The notes under the pieces: generated by a model
The model's database searches: none
What the model was told of the DNA's origin: nothing
Seen by the model: the letters and a program-made list of their open reading frames with translations, nothing else
Assembly (NCBI RefSeq): GCF_947493875.1
Contig: NZ_CANLSU010000004.1
Coordinates: 62,001-126,000, forward strand
Direction of reading: 5' to 3'
Length of the DNA stretch: 64,000 bases
Origin: an uncultured Marinococcus sp.
GTDB lineage: Bacteria > Bacillota > Bacilli > Bacillales > Marinococcaceae
Shown: positions 1,478 to 31,954 of the stretch, piece by piece
Position numbering within the stretch: the first letter of the stretch is position 1
Layout: every line of letters starts with the position of its first letter
Made by a program: the position numbers and the translations under genes

Positions 1478-4267
<2,790 letters not shown>

Positions 4268-4283
4268 TTACGTTCGGCAATCT

Positions 4284-27945: not shown

Positions 27946-27981
27946 TTATATAAATGTTCTTTAAAATAGTTCTTTCAGGGC

Positions 27982-28018
27982 CCGCGCCGCTGAACAGGCT
28001 TCCTGCGCTTTTCTTTGT
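27982..28018 (+). repeat. Solo right end of the palindromic repeat
   Basis: Reads CCGCT-GAACA-GGCTTCC then TGCGCTTTTCTTTG. This equals the right half of the full repeats in this window, including the five-base NNNCA bulge segment and the 7-base outer stem arm. The matching left arm is absent, so it is a truncated copy. It shares its CGCTTTTCTTTG tail with the head of the next unit. Confidence 0.65.
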
Positions 28019-28136
28019 CCAGCTTCGAAGCCTAACCGCTCGGGGTTACTTCCTAGCCGACTCCGGGCAGCAGGCTGCCCTGCACGTCTGGGAAGTACCT
28101 GTCGCGGTTAAGCAAGGCTTCTGCGCTTTTCTTTTT
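28005..28136 (+). repeat. Palindromic intergenic repeat, copy 1
   Basis: Head CGCTTTTCTTTGTCCAGCT, outer arms GAAGCCT (28027-28033) and AGGCTTC (28115-28121), inner arms AACCGC (28034-28039) and GCGGTT (28104-28109). A one-sided five-base bulge, AAGCA, separates them on the right. The loop of about 60 bases contains further small stems (GGCAGC/GCTGCC). The tail repeats CGCTTTTCTTT. No open reading frame is present. Confidence 0.7.
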
Positions 28137-28261
28137 GTCCAGCTACGGGTGTTACCAGCTTAATCCATTCGTGATTTCAGCTCGTTTGTGACTTCGTCTC
28201 AAGCCGACTGAAACCGACGAGCCGTTTAAGCTGGTGCCCAAACACCCTCCGCTTTTCTTTG
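28123..28261 (+). repeat. Palindromic intergenic repeat, copy 2
   Basis: Head CGCTTTTCTTTTTGTCCAGCT, left arm GGGTGTT then ACCAGCTTAA, right arm TTAAGCTGGT, bulge GCCCA, then AACACCC and the tail CTCCGCTTTTCTTTG. The outer 7-bp stem differs from copies 1 and 3 at both arms, yet still pairs. It shares its head with the tail of copy 1, giving a tandem array. Confidence 0.7.
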
Positions 28262-31247: not shown

Positions 31248-31283
31248 AAAGCTGCTTCCTCACAAGAGGAGCAGCTTTTTTTG
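31248..31283 (+). terminator. Terminator of the small gene at 31036
   Basis: Perfect 13-bp stem AAAGCTGCTTCCTC / GAGGAGCAGCTTT with four-base loop and a run of seven T. Confidence 0.88.
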
Positions 31284-31338
31284 ATTTATAGGTTGCCCAC
31301 TCTTCAGACACTCAGAACGCAGCGGTTTATTAGTCGGC

Positions 31339-31470
31339 CGCGTTTCTCTGTCCAGCTCCGGAAGCCAGCGATTTCGCATCCCTTCAGACCTTTGTCAAAG
31401 TGAAAAAGCCACTTTTCCAAAGCCCTTCCAGGGTCCGCATCGCTGGTCAGGCTTCCTCCGCTTTTCTTTT
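31339..31470 (+). repeat. Palindromic intergenic repeat, copy 3
   Basis: Head CGTTTCTCTGTCCAGCT, left arm GGAAGCC-AGCGAT, right arm ATCGCT, five-base bulge GGTCA, GGCTTCC, then tail TCCGCTTTTCTTTT. Architecture is the same as copies 1 and 2, 3.2 kb away. Its right edge touches the stop codon of the acetyltransferase gene. Confidence 0.7.
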
Positions 31471-31954
31471 ACATATCCTTCTCCATAATCAGCATCGGGA
31501 TCTGGTAGCCACCGAACTCTCCCTGCAGCTTTTCTTTTTTCTCGAAGCCCTGGGCTTCGTAGAATTTCTGCCCGCGTGTATTTTTTTCCTCTATATACAC
31601 CCGGATTTTTTTAGCGTTTGGCTCTTCTAGCAGCGTTTCGTCAAATAATTGCTTTCCAATCCCCCGGCTCTGGTGTCCGGGAAGCAGGTATAAAGCTGAC
31701 ATTTTACAGGTTCTTTTGTCATCGATCGGGCCTAGATCGGAAAAGCCAATAACTGTTCCATCCACTTCAGCTACTTTAGAGGTGTGCTTGGATATACGGC
31801 GCATTAACATTTCATCGTTGTAGGCCTGGCTTAAATACATTTCCTGGGCCGGAAGCGGAATAATTCCCTCGTAGGCATCGTACCAGCATTCCCTTGCAAC
31901 TTCCCGGATTCGGTCCAAATCTTTGTACTTCATCGGGCGGATAATAACAGCCAT
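31469..31954 (-). CDS. GNAT family N-acetyltransferase
   Basis: 161-residue acetyl-CoA-dependent transferase. The GNAT fold is visible: motif A strand KMSALYLLPGHQSRGIGKQL holds the Q/RxxGxG acetyl-CoA loop at about residues 94-99, and motif B contains ARGQKFYEAQGF-like NTRGQKFYEAQGFEK. Substrate unknown. AAAGGAGG precedes the ATG. The stop codon lies at the edge of a palindromic repeat, which may also act as its 3' hairpin. Confidence 0.88.
   Translation of the reverse strand: MAVIIRPMKYKDLDRIREVARECWYDAYEGIIPLPAQEMYLSQAYNDEMLMRRISKHTSKVAEVDGTVIGFSDLGPIDDKRTCKMSALYLLPGHQSRGIGKQLFDETLLEEPNAKKIRVYIEEKNTRGQKFYEAQGFEKKEKLQGEFGGYQIPMLIMEKDM

Follow-up and report, generated by a model that had tools for sequence, protein, structure and literature searches.

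How do palindromes whose stems differ in sequence from copy to copy come to share one fold and one pair of ends, and what brings them to gene ends? The question is raised by three full repeat units and one solo right end in the window, by which we mean the whole 64-kb stretch of DNA that was analyzed. A preliminary description of these palindromes had claimed a common fold with a constant bulge, stems that change on both arms, and relatives elsewhere in the Bacillaceae.

Units 1 and 2 are flanked by ORFs that, by eye, resemble pyrG and rpoE. Ahead of them lies the solo right end (27976–28013, + strand), which on reading the sequence is a unit-3-type tail, truncated at its 5' end and terminating in CGCTTTTC (28006–28013). 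The 3-nt spacer TTT (28014–28016, +) separates this tail from unit 1 (28017–28131, +), which is of type A and has the head GTCCAGC, a TNC/TNC loop and the tail CGCTTTTC; its outer stem is GAAGCCT/AGGCTTC, its inner stem AACCGC/GCGGTT, and its bulge AAGCA. Unit 2, of type B (28137–28257, +), follows after the spacer TTTTT (28132–28136, +), whose 5 nt is the commonest spacer length, and has the outer stem GGGTGTT/AACACCC, the inner stem ACCAGC/GCTGGT and the bulge GCCCA. Unit 3, of type C (31350–31466, +), is preceded by a degenerate tail-like stretch, GTCGGCCGCGTTTCTCT (31333–31349, +; recognized by eye), and has the outer stem GGAAGCC/GGCTTCC, the inner stem AGCGAT/ATCGCT and the bulge GGTCA. 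Two nucleotides past its tail is the TAA stop codon (31469–31471, − strand) of an opposing ORF (31469–31954; 176 open codons), which we judged by eye to be acetyltransferase-like. Two congeners (G300 and G397; loci L226 and L229) carry about 1.4 kb before the place of unit 3 that is absent from the window (31277–31313), and this segment resembles by eye a sodium/proton antiporter gene.

Sequence, folding and a covariance model bore out the three full units and the solo right end with the fold that had been claimed for them. In every unit, GTCC and a 3-bp AGC/GCT pairing are followed by a symmetric TNC/TNC loop and a 7-bp stem; a bulge then interrupts the 3' side, an inner stem of at least six pairs lies further in, and the tail is GCTTTTC. 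The AGC/GCT pairing, which lies outside the 7-bp stem and beyond the symmetric loop, was missing from the elements listed at first. The covariance model matched the window at 28017–28134, 28137–28260 and 31350–31469 with 59–66 bits; these scores are not independent, because the model was trained on eight rows that include these three units. Three weaker matches (18, 12.5 and 11.8 bits) were not accepted as units. When fold energy on the + strand was compared with dinucleotide shuffles, units 1–3 gave z values of −3.4, −5.8 and −2.8, and 0, 0 and 1 of 200 shuffles folded as well as the real unit. The window had no Rfam match at the gathering score.

Beyond the window, what defines the family is the foot TGTCCAGC-TNC-[7 bp][6 bp] ... 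[6 bp]-NNNC(R)-[7 bp]-TNC-GCTTTTC. The interior differs widely in sequence and length; the whole unit is mostly ~110–125 bp, and longer or nested units reach ~340 bp. Conservation of TNC is partly search-selected, since TNC was included in most search motifs; the bulge was not a search criterion. Among 265 units filtered on pairing, 160 had a 5-nt bulge, 93 a 4-nt bulge, six a 6-nt bulge and six an 8-nt bulge. Of the 160 5-nt bulges, 156 had C at position 4, and position 5 was A in 121 and G in 36; C at position 4 recurred in 80 of the 93 4-nt bulges. Elsewhere in its own genome, the window's family has two copies that depart from NNNCA (locus L002), one with an 8-nt bulge and the other with an internal loop. 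The constant 5-nt NNNCA bulge of the preliminary description thus has to be given up, bulges of 4, 6 or 8 nt being present in 105 of the 265 units.

The stems fared differently. In an unfiltered test, each GTCCAGCTNC head was joined to an TNCGCTTTTC tail at the correct distance with pairing ignored, which gave 261 unique feet. At least 11 of 13 pairs were formed in 217 of these, against a mean of 10.3 and a maximum of 20 feet when the 3' arms were shuffled. Mean pairs were 6.32 of 7 in the outer stem and 5.38 of 6 in the inner stem (3.36 and 3.28 with shuffled 3' arms; highest means among 500 shuffles, 3.61 and 3.47). Restricting the set to one unit per locus left 105 feet, of which 90 had at least 11 of 13 pairs (500 shuffles: mean 6.4, maximum 15). 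Four pair types are in use at several stem positions of the 265-unit set, and stems are less conserved than ends and loops. Fewer than five of seven outer pairs were found in 14 of 240 units, most of which share a symmetric two-base mismatch, and on reading ~5 of the 240 were chimeras with unmatched arms. Units with unmatched arms are few; mismatched units therefore arise without accumulating. Across the family, then, stems change on both arms and pairing is kept. The suggestion that a folded substrate is selected or copied stands as far as it rested on co-varying arms, to which conserved ends and loops can be added, and falls as far as it rested on a constant bulge.

Of the 397 genomes sampled from the order, 188 contain the family, as do 75 of 135 genera; about half of the order's sampled genomes thus carry it, some with ~100 copies (109 in G209 and 102 in G191, the copy-richest). 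This count used a stricter pattern whose reversed control gave 0 or 1 match per strand in rows, and rows were de-duplicated by flank or foot ahead of every count. In the window's genome, the pattern TCCAGCTN{88,118}CTTTTC was matched 31 times and its reversed control 4 times; the stem filter leaves 16 distinct units, with at least four interior types that have only the foot in common. A covariance-model search of the whole genome returned eight matches, mostly fragments, and patterns were chosen for counting because these matches were few and fragmentary; the patterns overlook diverged and longer units. A tandem-junction scan of named genomes gave at least 120 stretches, nearly all, among the matches listed, from Bacillaceae, Planococcaceae and their kin. 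The two stretches from a Sedimenticola MAG and from Dyella read like coding sequence. Loci L076–L195 were picked by the junction CGCTTTTCTTTGTCCAGCT, and 99 of these 120 contain a full unit by the stem filter; arrays and TTT spacers are over-represented among them because that junction defined the choice. Outside the order, 16 of 140 genomes of the class had one or two pattern matches, of which the match in G499 and one of two in G519 are unit-like by eye.

The statement that similar palindromes occur in other Bacillaceae was right, as the 188 genomes and the junction-scan matches attest. No Rfam match to the family itself was found in the window or in 14 related loci; when the threshold was relaxed, a mir-507 match far below its cutoff (26.7 of 79 bits) overlapped one unit of L104. 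Plasmids and phages gave no match to blastn with one unit each, nor did plasmids to a window unit, blastn being weak for sequences this variable. Viral contigs gave six matches to the head pattern alone and a single junction match, which was read out, resembles coding sequence and was rejected. We found no prior description in the open-licence literature, a coverage outside which most subscription journals lie, and this family of folded short repeats in Bacillus-like bacteria is apparently undescribed.

At orthologous sites, genomes differ by the presence or absence of entire units, which stand alone or form head-to-tail arrays. Four congeners were read at the pyrG-rpoE site. The tail occupies the same place in G300, G380 and G397; between identical outer flanks, the window and G300 have tail-A-B, G380 has tail-B, and G397 has tail-A. 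The fourth, G257, has an interrupted remnant and then C-A between the same outer flanks, so that a full type-B copy is absent from both G257 and G397. A comparison of four sites across 26 genomes of the genus to which the named Rossellomorea query loci belong, with three of the sites read out in 10–15 genomes each, showed that arrays stand behind hairpins that look terminator-like by eye, that whole units have been gained or lost, and that a 5'-truncated lead tail is often left. Filled and unfilled states were also read at several sites in G191 and six relatives. At one of these, the near-empty G165 runs from ..GATC directly into TTAGTGACC, reading GATCTTAGTGACC at the place of the array, and the filled G191 has ..CTAGTG, three units and then TTAGTGACC. 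The successive G191 units are preceded by CTAGTG, GTGGTG and TTGGTG, all similar to the flank TTAGTG. The left side of site 371 has gained about 36 nt, and some 'empty' sites hold remnants, which makes them collapsed and not never-filled.

Spacers within arrays are mostly 3–6 nt long, with 5 nt in 85 of 134 (108 arrays, junction-selected loci left out). They resemble the 3' flank of their own array: identity was 0.507 for 131 spacers outside the junction-selected loci, against 0.369 ± 0.022 with shuffled flanks, and none of 2000 flank shuffles reached the observed value. Over all 179 arrays, the figures were 0.582 and 0.473 ± 0.017. For isolated copies (57 rows, several from one composite), lengths of 3–6 nt were compared and 5 nt alone stood out (0.449 against 0.380 ± 0.020; highest shuffle 0.453), and no clear target duplication was found. 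Units also occur inside another repeat family that exists without them too. In the G191 loci, a different palindromic repeat was seen seven times with a unit inserted at the same position and once uninterrupted. There is no duplication at that junction; we therefore think that a single insertion probably occurred, after which the composite spread.

On these sequences, our preferred reading, at a probability of about 0.6, is that the window palindromes are copies of an order-wide, non-autonomous, fold-dependent and REP-like family of mobile repeats. Recognition of a folded single strand agrees with ends that are conserved without terminal inverted repeats, with a conserved but irregular hairpin, with an interior free to vary and with short spacers. 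The hairpin, as single-stranded DNA or as RNA, would be the substrate recognized at copying, and only self-complementary units would propagate under such recognition. A new unit would enter a GCTTTTC-like stretch, in most cases the tail of an older unit or a purine-rich run past a stop codon, and its entry may create a short duplication of about 5 nt. The family would then be a Gram-positive counterpart to REP sequences with the same preference for stop codons, and would open two questions to testing: why palindromes gather beside stop codons, and which machinery mobilizes such repeats where RAYT is not found. A stronger version, which we consider doubtful, holds that these are order-wide mobile hairpins homing to functional 3' gene ends (stop codons and 23S rRNA ends), moved by a machinery other than a Y1/HUH transposase or any known reverse transcriptase, and recognized solely via the folded foot, with an interior free to become anything, other repeats included.

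Placement was assessed in 182 distinct arrays by the distance from the array tail to the nearest end of an opposing ORF, ORFs being taken as open codons (at least 100; at least 80 in the G191 count) without gene prediction. The opposing end lay at −1 to +5 nt in 55 arrays, at 6–25 nt in 2 and at 26–150 nt in 30, and 95 arrays had none within 150 nt. In roughly one third of the arrays, that is, the tail abuts the stop codon of the opposing frame. The 43 arrays of G191, a subset of the 182 that was fetched once the effect had been seen, gave 10, 2 and 13 in the same three classes with the 80-codon threshold. On the same strand, no frame of at least 100 codons ends less than 33 nt ahead of the first head in any of the 182 arrays; other counts gave four open frames at −5 to 7 nt that are shorter or overlap. 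The 95 arrays without a called ORF also often have stop-like triplets at −1 to 5 (65, against 15 at 10 to 16 and 34 at 20 to 26), and thus a T/A-rich target may explain part of the stop-codon effect. The 3' end of a 23S rRNA match is 0 nt away from one copy in the order sample and 4 nt away from another, from which it follows that translation as such is unnecessary for placement. At L047 and L061, a 23S rRNA gene lies immediately ahead of units, beyond which are 5S rRNA and tRNA genes (L047) or tRNA genes (L061).

Could the hairpins simply be kept by their hosts? The opposite strand would be transcribed as the end of an mRNA, in which the hairpin tunes ribosome release, decay or termination, and copies would be retained for function and not spread. 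We regard this as a serious if unlikely alternative, and it is compatible with mobility. The adjacency of array tails to stop codons speaks for it, as do the copies beside 23S rRNA ends, the orthologous sites within one genus, and the compensatory base changes that are expected of a structured 3'-UTR RNA and are present here. Arrays at orthologous sites within genera could reflect a host function. Mismatches point the same way: on the head-to-tail strand, A.C outnumbers G.T by 63 to 25 in the 265 pairing-filtered units, whose copies are related, which amounts to a G.U excess on the other strand and favors that strand if the folded molecule is RNA. However, the excess is a modest 16 to 8 in one-per-locus outer stems, the larger counts are not independent, and wobble pairs are few for an RNA. 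Against host selection also stand the 95 of 182 arrays without an opposing ORF end inside 150 nt, the copies that lie inside another repeat, and the nesting of some units. Under the mobile-repeat reading, a unit at a gene end would still form a strong 3'-UTR hairpin a few nucleotides from the stop codon in the mRNA of the opposing gene, and such a hairpin may, by analogy with reports on REPs, affect translation or mRNA decay. A passage in PMC12306157 reports that E. coli REPs within 15 nt of a stop codon lower the translation of the upstream gene.

The orientation of units was also recorded. In contig C1 of G191 (92 kb–3.19 Mb), 17 of 17 arrays up to 1.58 Mb are on one strand and 22 of 26 beyond 1.80 Mb are on the other, among the matches listed; among the same matches, the unit strand is the local coding strand in 34 of 43 arrays. 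A general replication-strand rule was rejected, being strong in G191 and unclear in other genomes. Same versus opposite coding strand was 9:6 in Marinococcus, 12:6 in the order sample, 32:35 in the junction loci, 5:1 in the Rossellomorea-type loci and 8:10 in ten genomes.

If the units are mobile, they might be classical REPs moved by a RAYT or IS200-type Y1 transposase, which we think quite improbable. The one-sided bulge of the hairpin and its short unpaired foot would suit such an enzyme, and 293 of the 397 genomes contain Y1_Tnp matches; G209 (109 copies, 3 matches), G027 (92, 3) and G244 (69, 2) are copy-rich examples. Yet G191 (102 copies), G324 (40), G082 (32) and G212 (31) have no Y1_Tnp match in a search that was a loose first pass and can miss matches, the GTAG/CGTC tag is absent, and the units are 3–6 times the length of a REP. 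A Y1 transposase of the REP type is thus not upheld as a requirement, given one copy-rich genome with a match (G209) and another without (G191). The window's genome has one Y1_Tnp/RAYT-like ORF (L007:1249–2001, − strand), with neighbors that look by eye like ssb and galU. Judged by eye against the characteristic motifs, its first HUH histidine and its catalytic tyrosine are presumably replaced; because key residues are seemingly lost, this ORF may be domesticated or dead. No unit was seen in its 3.2-kb locus. Nor was an autonomous copy, with a gene between matched head and tail, recognized among the loci examined: orphan long head-tail pairs, once read out, were longer or nested units, and a 4-kb pair in L121 joins a unit to a distant array. 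RVT_1, searched in the same loose manner, matched four of ten copy-rich genomes and gave no match in G191, G082, G165, G212, G209 and G244. The 102-copy G191 therefore has neither a Y1_Tnp nor an RVT_1 match; an earlier mobilizer may since have been lost, which is compatible with absence today.

Arm correction without selection is hardly probable either. Template switching between the arms would perfect quasi-palindromes and make a selected fold unnecessary, and single-arm mismatches are indeed few (204 of 3445 cells are non-Watson-Crick in the pairing-filtered set), but the process should wipe out the TNC/TNC loop and the one-sided bulge, whereas the loop is common to the foot and the bulge retains its length and its C. 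Very improbable is a retroposon, whose reverse-transcribed transcripts would insert 3' end first, with 5' truncation leaving solo tails and template jumps making arrays: a 5'-truncated tail often precedes the first unit, short filler spacers occur, and arrays close with a complete tail (though by the way arrays were found), but six of ten copy-rich genomes, G191 and G209 included, have no RVT_1 match, and the type of a lead tail follows that of later units, consistent with recombination within arrays.

Among known systems, the mobile-repeat family comes closest to REP/BIME sequences of the GTAG and CGTC families, with which it shares multi-copy extragenic palindromes, conserved ends, stems that vary by family, and a position close to stop codons. 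The termini of GTAG REPs often supply the TAG stop codon, according to part of PMC3733652, and a passage in PMC12306157 gives the number of E. coli REPs lying no more than 15 nt from a stop codon as 446 of the 4,072 predicted, compared with 260 of 496 for an earlier study. In contrast, a REP palindrome is 20–40 bp long and these units are mostly ~110–125 bp and up to ~340 bp; their ends are (T)GTCCAGC and GCTTTTC in place of a GTAG or CGTC tag. Unlike REPs, the units form head-to-tail arrays with 3–6 nt spacers and, as far as tested, do not require a Y1 partner. The family thus resembles REPs in behavior and differs from them in size and tag. Another short intergenic repeat, bcr1 of the Bacillus cereus group, is given as 147–167 bp in a section of PMC2267715, where a cited title ascribes to it mobile-element characteristics and specificity to that group; we set it beside the units by description only.

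Other comparisons are structural. The units do not resemble a MITE of a DDE transposon, for at their outermost ends solely AGC/GCT is complementary and the stems lie further in. IS200/IS605-type transposons have imperfect-hairpin ends and no long terminal inverted repeats, and their left flank and right end are often similar in sequence. These features recur here, the left flank being similar to the right end in many copies. The differences are that no transposase gene was recognized inside units, that G191 has no Y1 match, and that array spacers resemble flank duplications, although insertion in another repeat left no target duplication. Integron attC sites are long imperfect hairpins with one-sided extrahelical bases, a variable interior and tandem arrays, all of which the units share; the end motifs differ, and no gene cassettes lie between the units read. 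A SINE-like retroposon calls for a reverse transcriptase in the genome, for which six of ten copy-rich genomes gave no RVT_1 match.

The Bacillaceae-1 RNA (RF01690), like the units, is folded, repeated and from Bacillaceae, but its sequence and fold are different and its model is 67 nt long. It has no match in the window at the gathering score; in the 14 related loci, it accounts for the Rfam matches at that score that touch units, and these fall on inserts in or beside the units. Examples are L227:1115–1181, L228:4405–4469, L229:5657–5723, L097:3423–3488, L111:5096–5161, L090, L076 and L163. The RNA appears in a table of PMC2864571, and a portion of PMC8208703 gives eight annotations of it in B. 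subtilis. It looks like a mobile palindromic repeat itself. In Bacillus niameyensis, a larger subfamily of units forms a tandem array of 206-bp units (L163, about 2219–4275, − strand), which has ten Bacillaceae-1 matches at identical spacing. A third palindromic repeat family (CTTGACTCCTGCGGGATGAAGAGGG..) was seen at L395 (− strand, about 1907), L074, L367, L370, L374, L377, L381 and L393, where copies both with a unit and without one were seen, the position of the unit being constant.
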